Shown: piece after piece, positions 55,371 through 60,954 of the stretch
Position numbering within the stretch: the first letter of the stretch is position 1
Layout: each line of letters starts with the position of its first letter
NCBI RefSeq assembly: GCF_001685415.1
Contig: NZ_CP014989.1
Coordinates: forward strand, 1,426,001-1,490,000
Direction of reading: 5' to 3'
Length of the DNA: 64,000 nt
Source of the DNA: Serinicoccus hydrothermalis
GTDB taxonomy: Bacteria; Actinomycetota; Actinomycetes; Actinomycetales; Dermatophilaceae
Notes under the pieces: generated by a model
What the model was told of the DNA's origin: nothing
Databases searched by the model: none
Seen by the model: only the letters and a program-made list of their open reading frames with translations
Translations under genes and position numbers: made by a program

Positions 55371-57452
55371 GTGAGTCAGTCGACACATCGCGCGGGGGCG
55401 GTGCGCCGCGGACCCTTCCGCCACGCCCTGACCGCCGCTGCCGCAGCAGCCGTCCTGACCGCCGTGGCCCTGCCGGCCACGGCGGAGGAGCCCTCCTACC
55501 TCGAGGACACGATCTACGACCCTGCGGACGCGCTCACCGACGCCGAGGAGCAGGCCGCCCTCGAGCAGATCGAGGAGCTGCGCGACGAGACCGGGCTGCA
55601 GCTCTTCGTCGCCTACGTCGACACTTTCACCGACACCTCGGGGGCGAGCATCGGCGGGGAGGAGTGGGCCCGGCTCACCTCCGACGAGTCCGGCATGGGG
55701 GCGGGCGACCTGCTCCTGGCGGTGGCCGTCGACCAGCGCGCCTACGGAGTCGGCGACGCCGGTCAGAGCCTCACCGACGCCCAGCTGCAGACGGTGCAGC
55801 TCGACGACATCGAGCCGCGCCTGGCCGAGGACGACTGGGCCGGTGCCGTCCAGGGCGCGACGGAGGGCTTCGCCCGGGAGTATGCCGCTGGCCCCTCCTC
55901 GGGCGGGGTGAGCGTGCCGGACGGGGAGGACGTCCACGCCCGGTCCGAGGGCGGCCTCGGTGGCGCCTTCCCCCTGCTGCTCCTCGCGCCCTTCGTCATC
56001 GGTGGCGTCGGGATGATCGCCGGGCGCCGCAAGCGCAGGCCCGACCCGGGCGCGGAGGTGCCGCCGCAGGCCCAGGGGGCGAGCCTGCCCGAGCTGCAGC
56101 GGGAGGCCTCCGAGGCCCTCGTCGCGATGGACAACGCCGTCCGCTCGGCCTGGGAGGAGCTCGACTTCGCGCAGGCGCAGTTCGGGACCCAGCAGACCCA
56201 GGCCTTCACGCAGGCGCTCTCCCGGGCCCGGGCCGCCGCCCAGGAGGCGTTCTCGCTGCGCCAGCAGCTGGACGACGACGACGAGGAGGCGGAGAGCGTG
56301 CAGCGGGCCATGCTGGGCCGCATCCTGGAGCTGACCGGACGGTCCCGGCAGGAGCTGGACGCGCAGACCGAGGAGTTCGCGCGGCTGCGCTCGCTCCAGG
56401 ACCGGGCGCCGCAGTTCCTCGCCGAGCTGGAGACCCGGGCCGCCGAGACCCGCGACCGGCTCCCGGCCGCCGAGCAGGAGCTGCGCGGTCTGCGCGCCCG
56501 GCACCCCGAGCGGGCGCTGGCCACGGTGCGGGCCAACCTCGAGCGGGCCACCAACCTGCTGGACTCCGCCGACGGCTTCGTCACCGCCGGCCGGCAGTCG
56601 GTGGAGCGGGACGACCGGGCCTCGGCCGTCGCGGCCGCCCGGGCCGCCGAGGAGTCGATCGGCCAGGCGGCCACGCTGCTGGACCAGATCGCCAGCGCCG
56701 ACGCGGACCTGCGCGGCGCGCAGGAGGAGATCGCCAAGGGCATCGCCTCGCTGTCCGCCGACCTGCAGGACGCCCGTCCGCACCAGGGCGAGCCCACGAT
56801 CGCCCAGGCCGTGGAGCGGGCCCGCGCGGCGATCGAGCAGGCGCAGGGCAGCACCGGCGGGGGTGACCCGCTGCGGGCGCTGGCCGACCTCGACGCCGCG
56901 GAGCACGCCCTCGACACGCTGCTCGAGCCGATGCGCGAGGCGCAACGTCACCAGGACAAGCTGCGCGGCGACTTCGAGGCACGCGTCAGCCGGGTCGGCG
57001 CCCGGCTGCAGAGCATCAACCAGACCGTGTCCACCGCCCGTGGTGCGGTGAGCAGCTCGGCGCGGACCCGGATCTCCGAGGCGCTGCGGCTCTACGACCA
57101 GGCGGTCGCCACCGCCTCGGAGGAGCCCACGGCCGCCATGGACCTGCTCACCCGCGCCGAGCAGCTCGGCGAGCGGGCCCTCACCGAGGCGCAGCGCGAC
57201 ACCGACCACTGGGGCAGCGGCTCCGGGGGCCTCGGCACCCCCTACTCGCGGGGCCGCTCCCGCGGCATCGACCCGTGGTCGGTGATCCTCGGGGGCATCC
57301 TCTCCGGTGCCGGCAGCTCGCACCGGCACAGCGGCGGATGGGGTGGAGGCGGCTTCGGCGGAGGCGGGGGCTTCGGCGGGGGTGGCGGCGGCTTCAGCGG
57401 TGGCGGCTTCGGCGGAGGAGGAGGGGGGAACTTCTCGGGCGGCCGCTTCTGA
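55371..57452 (+). CDS. TPM-domain membrane protein, long form with Gly-rich tail
   Basis: A 693-residue exported protein: signal peptide (to about 40, ending ATAEEPS), a TPM domain (about 45-190: DALTDAEEQAALEQIEELRDE, GLQLFVAYVDTF, GDLLLAVAVDQRAYGV), a membrane helix (about 208-225), a ~400-residue coiled-coil cytosolic region, and a tail of Gly/Phe repeats ending GGGGNFSGGRF. TPM proteins of this form sit beside pspA in actinobacteria and probably act in envelope stress or membrane-protein assembly. GTG start with AGGA seven bases upstream. Confidence 0.88.
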   Translation: MSQSTHRAGAVRRGPFRHALTAAAAAAVLTAVALPATAEEPSYLEDTIYDPADALTDAEEQAALEQIEELRDETGLQLFVAYVDTFTDTSGASIGGEEWARLTSDESGMGAGDLLLAVAVDQRAYGVGDAGQSLTDAQLQTVQLDDIEPRLAEDDWAGAVQGATEGFAREYAAGPSSGGVSVPDGEDVHARSEGGLGGAFPLLLLAPFVIGGVGMIAGRRKRRPDPGAEVPPQAQGASLPELQREASEALVAMDNAVRSAWEELDFAQAQFGTQQTQAFTQALSRARAAAQEAFSLRQQLDDDDEEAESVQRAMLGRILELTGRSRQELDAQTEEFARLRSLQDRAPQFLAELETRAAETRDRLPAAEQELRGLRARHPERALATVRANLERATNLLDSADGFVTAGRQSVERDDRASAVAAARAAEESIGQAATLLDQIASADADLRGAQEEIAKGIASLSADLQDARPHQGEPTIAQAVERARAAIEQAQGSTGGGDPLRALADLDAAEHALDTLLEPMREAQRHQDKLRGDFEARVSRVGARLQSINQTVSTARGAVSSSARTRISEALRLYDQAVATASEEPTAAMDLLTRAEQLGERALTEAQRDTDHWGSGSGGLGTPYSRGRSRGIDPWSVILGGILSGAGSSHRHSGGWGGGGFGGGGGFGGGGGGFSGGGFGGGGGGNFSGGRF

Positions 57453-57552: not shown

Positions 57553-58269
57553 ATGACCCAGAAGCAGACGATCATCGGCCGCGTCAGCCAGCTCGCGCGG
57601 GCCAACATCAACGCGCTGCTGGACCGCGCGGAGGACCCGGAGAAGATGCTGGACCAGCTGGTCCGGGACTACTCCAACTCCATCGCCGAGGCGGAGGAGG
57701 CGGTGGCGCAGACCATCGCCAACGTCCGCATGGCCGAGGCCGACCTGCAGACCGACCGCGACGCGGCCGCCGAGTGGGGGCGCAAGGCCGCCGCCGCCTC
57801 GGCCAAGGCCGAGGAGATGCGCGGCGCGGGCGACCCGGACGGCGCCTACAAGTTCGACAACCTCGCCCGGGTGGCGCTGGGCCGCCAGATCCAGCACGAG
57901 AACGACGTCCGCAGCGCCGAGCCGACGATCGCCCAGCAGAACGAGACCGTCGAGCAGCTCAAGGGCGGGCTGGTGACGATGAAGACCAAGCTCGAGGACC
58001 TCAAGGCTCGCCGCGGCACCCTCGTCGCCCGGGCCCGCTCGGTCGAGGCCCAGGAGAAGGTCCAGGACGCCATGTCCTCGATCGACGTCATGGACCCGAG
58101 CAGCGACCTGGCCCGCTGGGAGGACAACATCCGCAAGCAGGAGGCGATGGTCGCGGGGCGCGCGGAGGCGCAGTCGGCCAGCCTGGAGGACCAGTTCGCC
58201 GAGCTGGAGAGCAGCGACGGCGACGCCGAGATCGAGGCCCGGCTGCAGCAGCTCAAGAGCCAGGGCTGA
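57553..58269 (+). CDS. pspA: PspA/IM30-family phage-shock protein
   Basis: A 238-residue, wholly helical ESCRT-III-like protein that coats and protects stressed membranes. It opens IIGRVSQLARANINALLDRAEDPEKMLDQLVRDY, the standard PspA start (amphipathic helix plus helix 1), and then continues as a coiled coil with EARLQQLKSQG at the end. AAAGGA precedes the ATG. It is 100 bases after the first TPM gene and 50 bases before the second, with a 28-base G run between. Confidence 0.95.
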   Translation: MTQKQTIIGRVSQLARANINALLDRAEDPEKMLDQLVRDYSNSIAEAEEAVAQTIANVRMAEADLQTDRDAAAEWGRKAAAASAKAEEMRGAGDPDGAYKFDNLARVALGRQIQHENDVRSAEPTIAQQNETVEQLKGGLVTMKTKLEDLKARRGTLVARARSVEAQEKVQDAMSSIDVMDPSSDLARWEDNIRKQEAMVAGRAEAQSASLEDQFAELESSDGDAEIEARLQQLKSQG

Positions 58270-58286: not shown

Positions 58287-58314
58287 GGGGGGGGGGGGGG
58301 GGGGGGGGGGGGGG
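58287..58314. repeat. Homopolymer of 28 G upstream of the second TPM gene
   Basis: Twenty-eight consecutive G residues end five bases before the GTG start of the second TPM gene. Such a tract is very prone to slippage. The usual place for a ribosome-binding site is occupied by the tract itself, and G-rich RNA can pair with the CCUCC anti-Shine-Dalgarno using one G-U wobble. A change in length would also alter promoter spacing or mRNA folding. It could partly be a sequencing artefact. Confidence 0.85.
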
Positions 58315-58319
58315 ACGAG

Positions 58320-59972
58320 GTGCGACTCCGTGCCGCGCTGGTCGCTGCTGTCCTGGGCCTCGGGCTCGGGACGGCGGCGGCCATCGCCACACCACCGCTG
58401 GACGAGGTCGACGCCGTCGTCGACGAGTCTGGCGTGCTCAGCGAGGCGCAGACCACCGAGGTCGAGGCCGCGATCGACGCGCTCGCGGACGAGCACGACA
58501 TCGACCTGCACGTGGTCTTCGTGGACAGCTTCGACGGCTACGTCGGCCCGGAGTGGGCCGACCAGACCTTCGACCGGGCCGGTCTCGGCGAGGGTGACGT
58601 CCTGCTCGCCGTCGCCGTCGAGGACCGGCGCTACGGGTATGTCGAGGAGACCCCCATCCGGGCCGGTGAGGCCGAGCGGGTGGCCGTGGACCTCGTCGAG
58701 CCCGAGCTGCGGCAGGAGGACTGGGACGGGGCCGCGGTCGCCGCCGCGGAGGGCTTCGGCGAGGCGTTCCGTCCCTTCAACTGGTGGATCTTCGGCGGCA
58801 TCGGGGCCGCCGTCGCGGGCTTCTTCGCCGCCGTGGGTGGCGCGATCTTCGGGCCGAGGGTGCGGCGCGACCGGAGCGCCCGGCGCCGCCGCCGGGACGC
58901 GGTCTTCACCGAGCGTCCCGCGCTGGTCGAGCTCATGACCGGCGCGCGTGAGCTCGCGGACCGGTCCGAGCAGGAGCAGGAGTTCGTGACGGTCCAGCTG
59001 GGCGAGGCGGAGGCGGAGCGGCTGCGGATCGCCCGCACCGAGGGCCTGTCCGCCCTGGACAGCGGCGTGACGTCCCTCGCCGAGGTCCCCCAGGAGCAGC
59101 CGCGACGCCTTCCGAAGCACGAGACGCTGTGGGCCTGGGAGCGCTCGCTGGAGTCGGCGCGTCAGGACCTGGAGACGTCGCACACGGTGCTCTCCTCCGC
59201 CCTGGACCGGGTCGACGTGGCCCGCACCCTGCAGCGGGACACCTCCCGGTTGGACGACCTCGCCTCGACCGTGGCCGCCCAGCTCGACCGCGCCGCGACG
59301 ATAGAGCAGGGCCTGGCCACGCTGTCCGGGTCACCGTGGCTGCACCAGCACGTCGCCGGGCTCGTCGAGCATGCGCGCACCGCGCTCCGGGTGGCGGGCT
59401 CGGCCCACGAGCACGGTGTGGCGCTGCTCGCGCAGGGCACGCCGGGTGACGCGGCGCAGGAGCTGCTCAGCGGCGAGGGTGCGCGCGCGAAGGCCGACGG
59501 TCTGCTGGACCGCGCCGAGGACCCCGCTGCCGAGCTGGCCGCAGCGCTCGAGGAGATCGCCCCCGAGGAGAAGGCCCTGCGCGCGGCGCTCGCCGAGGCC
59601 GAGCAGCAGCAGCTCAAGCTCGACGACTACACCCGTCGGGCCAACCGGCTGGGTCTGCAGGAGCGGCTCGGTCGGGTCGACCCCGCCCGCATCGGCCAGG
59701 CCGTCACCGACGGCGCGGCCGCGCTCCGGGCCCACCCGGAGGACCCGCCCGCCCGTGCGGCGGGGCTCAGCGCCGCGTCGGCCGAGCTGAGGGCGGCGGT
59801 GGCCCCGGTGCTGTCGCTGGCCGTCATCATCGAGGCGGCCAGCGCCTCCTCCGGGAGCTCCTCGGGCAGCAGCTCACGGCGCTCCTACTCCAGCCGCTCC
59901 TCCGGCCGCTCGTCCTCACGGAGCTCCTCCTCACGCAGCTCGTCGCGCAGCCGGGGCGGGGGACGCTTCTGA
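58320..59972 (+). CDS. TPM-domain membrane protein, second copy with Ser/Arg tail
   Basis: A 550-residue paralogue of the gene at 55371. Signal peptide MRLRAALVAAVLGLGLGTAAA, TPM domain (about 25-150: EAAIDALADEHDIDLHVVFVD, GDVLLAVAVEDRRYGYVEE), a membrane segment (about 158-183, IFGGIGAAVAGFFAAVGGAIFG), coiled coil, and a C-terminal Ser/Arg-rich tail ending SRSRGGGRF instead of the Gly/Phe repeats of the first copy. The GTG start is fixed by the signal peptide; upstream lies only the G tract. A 14-codon reading frame overlaps its stop. Confidence 0.87.
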   Translation: MRLRAALVAAVLGLGLGTAAAIATPPLDEVDAVVDESGVLSEAQTTEVEAAIDALADEHDIDLHVVFVDSFDGYVGPEWADQTFDRAGLGEGDVLLAVAVEDRRYGYVEETPIRAGEAERVAVDLVEPELRQEDWDGAAVAAAEGFGEAFRPFNWWIFGGIGAAVAGFFAAVGGAIFGPRVRRDRSARRRRRDAVFTERPALVELMTGARELADRSEQEQEFVTVQLGEAEAERLRIARTEGLSALDSGVTSLAEVPQEQPRRLPKHETLWAWERSLESARQDLETSHTVLSSALDRVDVARTLQRDTSRLDDLASTVAAQLDRAATIEQGLATLSGSPWLHQHVAGLVEHARTALRVAGSAHEHGVALLAQGTPGDAAQELLSGEGARAKADGLLDRAEDPAAELAAALEEIAPEEKALRAALAEAEQQQLKLDDYTRRANRLGLQERLGRVDPARIGQAVTDGAAALRAHPEDPPARAAGLSAASAELRAAVAPVLSLAVIIEAASASSGSSSGSSSRRSYSSRSSGRSSSRSSSSRSSSRSRGGGRF

Positions 59973-60016
59973 TGCCTCGTCGCCGAGCACCGCACCTGGC
60001 CGGGCCGCGACCGTGA
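59972..60016 (+). CDS. 14-codon reading frame linking two TPM genes
   Basis: ATG at 59972 overlaps the stop of the second TPM gene (TGATG) and the short frame (MPRRRAPHLAGPRP) ends in TGA overlapping the GTG of the next gene (GTGA at 60013-60016). Ribosomes could therefore pass from one gene to the next by two re-initiation events. The peptide itself need not have a role. Confidence 0.4.
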   Translation: MPRRRAPHLAGPRP

Positions 60017-60954
60017 CCCGCCGCCGCGCGGGGAGGGTCGCCGCCGCGCTCCTCGCCGCCGGTCTGTGCGGTGCGGCGCTCGTCCCATCCTCCCCTCTCA
60101 CCGCGGTGGCGCAGGAGCCCTTCGACCTGCCCGGCGAGCTGGTCGATCAGGCCGAGGTGCTCGGCGACACCAGCGAGCTGGTCGCCGACCAGGACGCCTT
60201 CGCGGGGCGCACCGGCCTGCAGCTCTTCGTCGTGGTCGTCGACGACTTCGAGGGCAGCAGCGCCTCGGGCTGGCTGGAGCGGACCGCCGGCCTCTCCGGG
60301 CTGGGTGAGCAGGACCTCGCGGTGGCCGTCTCGGTCGACGACGCCGACGCGGCGGTCCGGGTCCCGGAGGGCAGCCGGCTGCGGCCCGGCGAGGTCGGCT
60401 CGGTGGTCGATCAGGTCGTCGCGCAGGCGCGCGCCCGCGACCCCCAGGGCGCCGTGGACACCGCGGTCACCGGCCTCACGGCGCTGGACCCCGTCGACCC
60501 GGCGCAGCGGGCGCGCGCGATCGCGGCGTGGACCGTGGGCATACTCCTGGCCCTGGCGGTGCTCCTGGCCGGCGCACTGTGGTGGCGTCGCCGTCGGGCA
60601 CGGGCTCGGCCCCTCGCCGACGCGGGCCGGCGCGCGGAGGAGCTCAGCGCGCAGCTGGGCGCGGACGTCGTCGCCCTGGACCAGGAGCTCGAGGACACCC
60701 GGCTGCGGGTCGAGCTCGCCGGCGCTGACGCCGATGCCGCCGCCACGGCGCAGGCGCGCAGCGAGCTCGCGGCGGGCGAGCTGGAGGCGCTCGACGTGCA
60801 CCGCGCCCGGGCCGACCTGTCGATCGGCCCGACCGACGACCCCACCTGGCGGCGACCGGTCACCGAGGTCGTCACCGAGCTGGAGCGGCTCCGCGGCCTC
60901 GCCGCCTCCGCCCGCGGGCACCTCGCCGACGCCCGGGACGCCCTCCCCCGGTGA
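60013..60954 (+). CDS. TPM-like membrane protein, short form
   Basis: A 313-residue exported protein: signal peptide (about 1-37), a divergent TPM domain (LPGELVDQAEVLGDTSELVADQDAFAGRTGLQLFVVVVDDF ... LAVAVSVDDADAAVRV), a membrane helix at about 178-196 (AWTVGILLALAVLLAGALWW) followed by an RRRRARAR stop-transfer, then a coiled coil. It lacks the low-complexity tail of the other two copies. It ends the pspA/TPM cluster just before a long inverted repeat. Function inferred from the neighbours only. Confidence 0.8.
   Translation: MTRRRAGRVAAALLAAGLCGAALVPSSPLTAVAQEPFDLPGELVDQAEVLGDTSELVADQDAFAGRTGLQLFVVVVDDFEGSSASGWLERTAGLSGLGEQDLAVAVSVDDADAAVRVPEGSRLRPGEVGSVVDQVVAQARARDPQGAVDTAVTGLTALDPVDPAQRARAIAAWTVGILLALAVLLAGALWWRRRRARARPLADAGRRAEELSAQLGADVVALDQELEDTRLRVELAGADADAAATAQARSELAAGELEALDVHRARADLSIGPTDDPTWRRPVTEVVTELERLRGLAASARGHLADARDALPR

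Follow-up and report, generated by a model that had tools for sequence, protein, structure and literature searches.

A 28-G homopolymer at the Shine-Dalgarno position of a TPM-family gene beside pspA in Serinicoccus hydrothermalis, probably a lineage-specific expansion by slippage

Introduction

It has been reported that one extra G in a poly-G stretch of the 5′UTR of espR in Mycobacterium tuberculosis raises translation, and that report describes variation in clinical isolates, an effect demonstrated by reporter and a proposed post-transcriptional action through leader folding; the homopolymer starts 144 bp upstream of the start codon, and a 5G stretch is predicted in the transcript (PMC11898584). 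Similarly, the pilus switch of Bifidobacterium breve depends on replication slippage in an actinobacterial G homopolymer, where an intragenic tract of G10–G11 changes the frame and was measured in culture and in mice (PMC9187656). The initial annotation of the locus treated here held that tracts of this kind have seldom been described from actinobacteria; this needs qualifying, since the B. breve and espR tracts have been published and the kind is therefore already known in the group. Meanwhile, PspA and TPM proteins are already known to be associated, with a proposed chaperone-like function in membrane complexes; neighbourhoods with PspA beside TPM_phosphatase genes are typified by ydjFGHL of B. 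subtilis, and the available part of that account mentions no homopolymer in them (PMC11237479).

The locus of Serinicoccus hydrothermalis described below shares features with each of these systems. As in espR, a poly-G tract lies in the 5′ leader and leaves the frame of the actinobacterial gene unchanged, but here the tract runs to 28 G, adjoins the Shine-Dalgarno (SD) site and is known from one assembly. Unlike the B. breve tract, it lies outside the frame, and no other genome compared has it. Like other PspA–TPM neighbourhoods, it joins pspA to TPM_phosphatase genes, here as three paralogues around pspA. Judged from the sequence, what appears to be new is the greater length of the tract and its place at the SD site itself.

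The G28 Tract and Its Surroundings

The window, i.e., the whole 64 kb stretch of DNA that was analysed, covers positions 1,426,001–1,490,000 of a genome assembled as one contig of 3,597,394 bases. The features around the tract are as follows, in window coordinates.

55401..57452, + strand: TPM1 paralogue, TPM_phosphatase; start from the gene finder (the open reading frame list gives 55335)
57553..58269, + strand: pspA, 238 aa, immediately 5′ of the tract; Pfam PspA_IM30
58287..58314, + strand: G28 homopolymer, putative expanded Shine-Dalgarno run; by run count, with G5 and G4 at this site in G021 and G010
58315..58319, + strand: ACGAG, the 5-nt spacer from tract to start codon, from the sequence
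58320..59972, + strand: TPM2, intact, 550 aa; TPM_phosphatase at residues 33–147, signal-peptide-like N terminus by reading
60013..60954, + strand: TPM3 paralogue, Pfam TPM_phosphatase

As assembled, 58287–58314 on the plus strand consists of 28 consecutive G residues, followed by ACGAG and by GTG at 58320, and the pure G tract first described from the letters is thus present at the length given. Its reported extent of 58287..58320 has the right start; the end is too far downstream, since 58320 is the first base of the GTG. The description of the tract as lying 5 bases before the GTG, at the SD position and outside the reading frame, agrees with the assembly, as does its placement next to pspA among three TPM paralogues, with Pfam matches to PspA_IM30 and, three times, to TPM_phosphatase. 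Between the pspA stop, which ends at 58269, and the tract there are 17 nt, and the other G or C runs in the window do not exceed 7. Because the genome is in one contig, the tract is internal and has intact genes on both sides. Reading-frame switching was considered and rejected, as the tract is upstream of the GTG and no nearby in-frame start was seen upstream by reading.

The TPM2 frame is open over 550 codons, and its product matches TPM_phosphatase (PF04536) with an E-value of 3e-19 and 69.7 bits against a cut-off of 22.1. Constraint on TPM2 is weaker than on TPM3, TPM1 or pspA: dN/dS against relative G021 is 0.45, 0.37, 0.31 and 0.08, respectively, and against relative G010 it is 0.55, 0.41, 0.28 and 0.14. 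The values of 0.45 and 0.55 still denote constraint, so the TPM2 product matters to some degree, and a tract that slightly lowers TPM2 could be tolerable. In G021, the TPM3 match (G021:C1:545895-546761) contains one in-frame TAG, and the gene finder calls an open gene of 312 codons in that region.

The Same Junction in Relatives

TPM2 as a query against named genomes found no relatives, and PspA was taken as the query in its place; the closest named pspA relatives belong to Serinicoccus and Ornithinimicrobium. In G021, where pspA is 96% and the TPM2 ortholog 65% identical, the junction reads ACGGGGGATGAC-GTG, a G5; in G010, with 94% and 54% identity, respectively, it reads CCGGGGACGTTCGCC-GTG, a G4. 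More distant versions of TPM2 stand downstream of pspA in G024, G002 and G025, and the junctions of these three contain no long G run. The comparison of tract length among relatives speaks against a tract kept at the orthologous locus. On a wider scale, 110 pspA junctions from two collections were compared (94 distinct, as 16 sequences occur twice; G008 is absent because its pspA match is split). A TPM2-like match lies downstream of pspA in 15 of them, and a G/C run of at least 7 occurs within 250 nt in 4, among which only the G28 junction stands before a TPM gene. Since the other pspA–TPM junctions have no long tract, this genome alone of those compared has the G28 tract, which would most simply have grown from a short SD-like G-run. 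Delivery by a mobile element was also considered and is not favoured: inspected by eye, the junction looks like its counterpart in G021, and the insertion sequence (IS) flank of other tracts in this genome, described below, is not seen next to it.

Mismatch Repair and Other Long Tracts of the Genome

The MutS_V profile matches none of the 31 genus genomes searched, against 11 of 14 control genomes, while the NucS_C profile matches all 31. With a NucS_C match and no MutS_V match, the genome is of the NucS type, without detectable MutS mismatch repair. It has been reported that NucS of M. smegmatis fails to repair indels of 1–2 bases (PMC11551767), and codon choice in M. tuberculosis is described as avoiding nucleotide repeats, which are unstable without mismatch repair (PMC2430213).

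The G28 tract is far beyond chance. Markov extrapolation from the runs of the window gives an expectation of ~0.1 (order 5) to 10 (order 3) G/C runs of at least 10 per genome and of ~1.5e-10 or fewer runs of at least 28. Genome-wide, 7 runs of at least 10 were observed, 5 of which reach at least 14, with lengths of 17, 28, 17, 15 and 29. The question thus extends beyond TPM2 to a heavy tail of long G-runs. The seven tracts amount to five independent ones, and the relatives are short in 4 of the 4 comparable cases. Besides the G28 tract, those with a recorded position are as follows, in genome coordinates.

G000:C1:993798-993814, 1767212-1767228 and 2156230-2156244 (L032, L035, L037): IS copies with a C/G tract of 17, 17 and 15, respectively
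G000:C1:3590941-3590969 (L042, L229): G29 within a gene judged exporter-like from reading alone
G000:C1:3408401-3408410 (L041): G10, 6 nt upstream of the GTG that opens an endonuclease/exonuclease-like gene, so assigned by reading

The three IS copies, which we take from reading to be IS21-like with an IstB-like gene alongside, are otherwise identical over 56 nt to the left and 1,491 nt to the right. A sister IS, 97% identical, in G394 (a different genus of the same family) carries G4 at the tract site. The 15/17/17 differences could be sequencing error; the three copies form a natural slippage reporter, a testable set for measuring slippage. From these lengths within one genome and from the absence of MutS_V across the genus, the slippage-proneness claimed for the G28 tract is graded as probable.

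In the exporter-like gene, four relatives read GGNGGN in an open frame at the site of the G29, which in the assembly leaves the two halves of the gene in different frames; further upstream there is a stop codon where G021 has glutamine, and neither piece has a Pfam match. This gene is read as a decaying gene or pseudogene, judging by these differences. At the site of the G10, G021 has G6, and the endonuclease/exonuclease-like protein has no match in the seven other genus genomes searched. A G11 sits 16 nt before a GTG, near a membrane-protein-like gene.

Tract Positions across the Genus and the Order

Eleven of the 12 single-contig genomes of the genus carry at least one tract of at least 10, and G009 has none. 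These 12 genomes alone, with the three IS copies counted separately, supply the 38 tracts of the position statistics: 30 are intergenic, 4 are at an SD position, defined as within 16 nt before a start, and 4 are coding. The gene finder, a purpose-built one, was trained on the 64 kb window and scored L042 and probably L174 as intergenic, so the coding class is undercounted. Tract counts from draft genomes are lower bounds, and two of the 70 loci inspected had runs below 10. It can be seen that 34 of the 38 tracts were scored as lying outside intact genes, against 33% intergenic positions in the same loci; tracts persist mostly where no intact frame breaks. The SD window holds 4 of the 34 intergenic-scored tracts against ~0.5 expected (1.6%), with a one-sided p of 0.002 obtained post hoc. 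This excess hints that tract position is not random; 3 of these 4 tracts belong to the present genome. Runs of G4 or longer occur in the SD regions of 5 of 52 other window genes (TPM2 and one window-edge gene left out), against 8.2% of random 17-mers, and seeding from G-rich SD sites is unsupported by this comparison.

Across the order, 70 of the 297 genomes sampled contain tracts of G20 or longer, though some of these tracts are at contig ends and suspect. Forty tracts were chosen by hand among those listed, leaving out genomes with many tracts; 10 near contig ends and 6 clusters were dropped, and of the 24 that could be classified none is at an SD site.

Several other tracts were observed in the course of this survey. 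In L174 (G011:C1, ~1376750), a G13 apparently falls, by reading, in the first codons of an epimerase-like gene and is possibly frame-disrupting. L173 (G027:C1, ~1558450) is a G/C run of 70 by a gene end in a single-contig genome and, apart from one at a contig end, the longest among the tracts listed. L216 (G030), L217/L218 (G020) and L227 (G024) are islands in which several G and/or C homopolymers fall within ~250 bases, as are L271, L276, L280, L285 and L303; some are near contig ends, and they are either real low-complexity DNA or assembly artefacts.

Predicted Effect of Tract Length

When the leader as a whole was paired with an assumed 16S tail sequence, the modelled energy was −11.0 kcal/mol with 8 G, −14.1 with 10 G and −14.7 for all lengths tested between 16 and 32 G. 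A score confined to the last 8 G stays at −10.8 from 8 G on, as its construction dictates, and the whole-leader values are the ones used here. The 3′ end of the tract is fixed 5 nt from the GTG, so the ribosome always meets G residues at the same spacing. Mean accessibility around the start is 0.47 at 24 G and only 0.51 at 32 G, with quadruplexes not counted. ViennaRNA predicts a quadruplex spanning the greater part of the tract at every length modelled of at least 16 G and none at 10 G or fewer; its stability rises with tract length, at energies that extrapolate the model. For length changes near 28 G, the effect predicted by these models is no more than weak and graded; at far shorter lengths a step is possible.

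Control through promoter spacing, another of the effects first suggested, was rejected: with 17 nt before the tract and 5 nt after it the anatomy leaves no room, and a scan limited to sigma-70-type sites found no match around the tract.

Origin of the Tract and Alternative Explanations

The reading favoured here, with a probability of about 0.66, is that the G28 tract is a lineage-specific, slippage-driven, neutral and unstable expansion and not an evolved on/off switch. An ancestral short G-run (~G4–G6) would have served as the Shine-Dalgarno sequence of TPM2. Where MutS-type repair is not detectable, one-base loops in such a run would go largely uncorrected, and beyond roughly ten bases the run would grow and shrink freely unless selection stops it. 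The expansion would be tolerated, since the tract is outside the frame and its last G residues pair with the ribosome at the fixed 5-nt spacing. Its length is probably polymorphic within a culture. An mRNA G-quadruplex would mildly and roughly constantly damp the translation of TPM2, and perhaps of TPM3 if the two genes are co-transcribed, with no ON/OFF behaviour. The absence of the tract at the same junction in relatives and the parallel expansions in the same genome are observed; selective neutrality is presumed.

The possibility that the tract is a sequencing or assembly artefact, in which a short run (G5–G10) was inflated or the length is wrong, is unlikely, though long homopolymers are difficult for sequencing platforms. 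Some draft-genome tracts at contig ends, such as G124 in G020 and G32 in G028, do have the look of artefacts, and the 10 of 40 fetched order-level tracts set aside above lie within ~145 bases of a contig end; in B. breve, moreover, the length of the main tract by deep sequencing differs from that in the reference genome, for which its authors consider slippage or a limit of the original sequencing possible (PMC9187656). Against this, the G28 tract is internal to a single contig between intact genes, three IS copies each have a tract of similar length, and tracts of at least 10 are found in nearly all single-contig genomes of the genus. Somewhat less probable still is an evolved contingency locus, as the initial annotation had suggested, in which changes of SD tract length by slippage would adjust TPM2 translation and make the handling of envelope stress heritably variable, in the manner of espR. 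The tract does lie at the ribosome site, this genome has two more tracts of 10–11 G at or near SD positions, and espR provides the precedent of a 5′UTR G that changes translation (PMC11898584); however, the TPM2-carrying relatives have no long tract, modelled pairing is flat from 16 to 32 G, promoter spacing is unfit, the long tracts of this genome also occur in IS copies and in a broken gene, and SD positions are missing from the 24 classifiable order-level tracts. On this evidence an evolved switch is not upheld.

In a broader version of that idea, the lineage is evolving a multi-locus translational rheostat in which G-runs in or near SD sites set ribosome access by unrepaired slippage and leave the frame untouched; the candidate loci may be the G28 before TPM2, the G10 of the endonuclease/exonuclease-like gene and the G11 near the membrane-protein-like gene. 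We regard this as very doubtful; if true, such a route could be easier for MutS-less high-GC actinobacteria than for others. Least probable, and a distant prospect, is a selected structural element, i.e., an mRNA G-quadruplex kept to repress TPM2 or to shield the message with no length switching. The predicted quadruplex, which covers most of the tract at 16 G and above and disappears at 10 G and below, fits such a role, but the homologous site is only G5 and G4 in the two closest carriers, and the same prediction is obtained for any long G-run, the IS copies included.

Biological Significance

If TPM2 were tuned by the tract, the locus would stand beside espR among actinobacterial genes whose translation is altered by a leader homopolymer. 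Under the favoured reading of a neutral slippage expansion, the locus is a warning that not every long tract in such genomes is a phase-variation switch. In one lineage, short G-runs have expanded at an SD site, at the end of a transposon and within a decaying gene, where the relatives compared have runs of at most 6. The genome thereby offers a clean case from nature of the way in which long G-homopolymers come about in high-GC bacteria with NucS and without detectable MutS.
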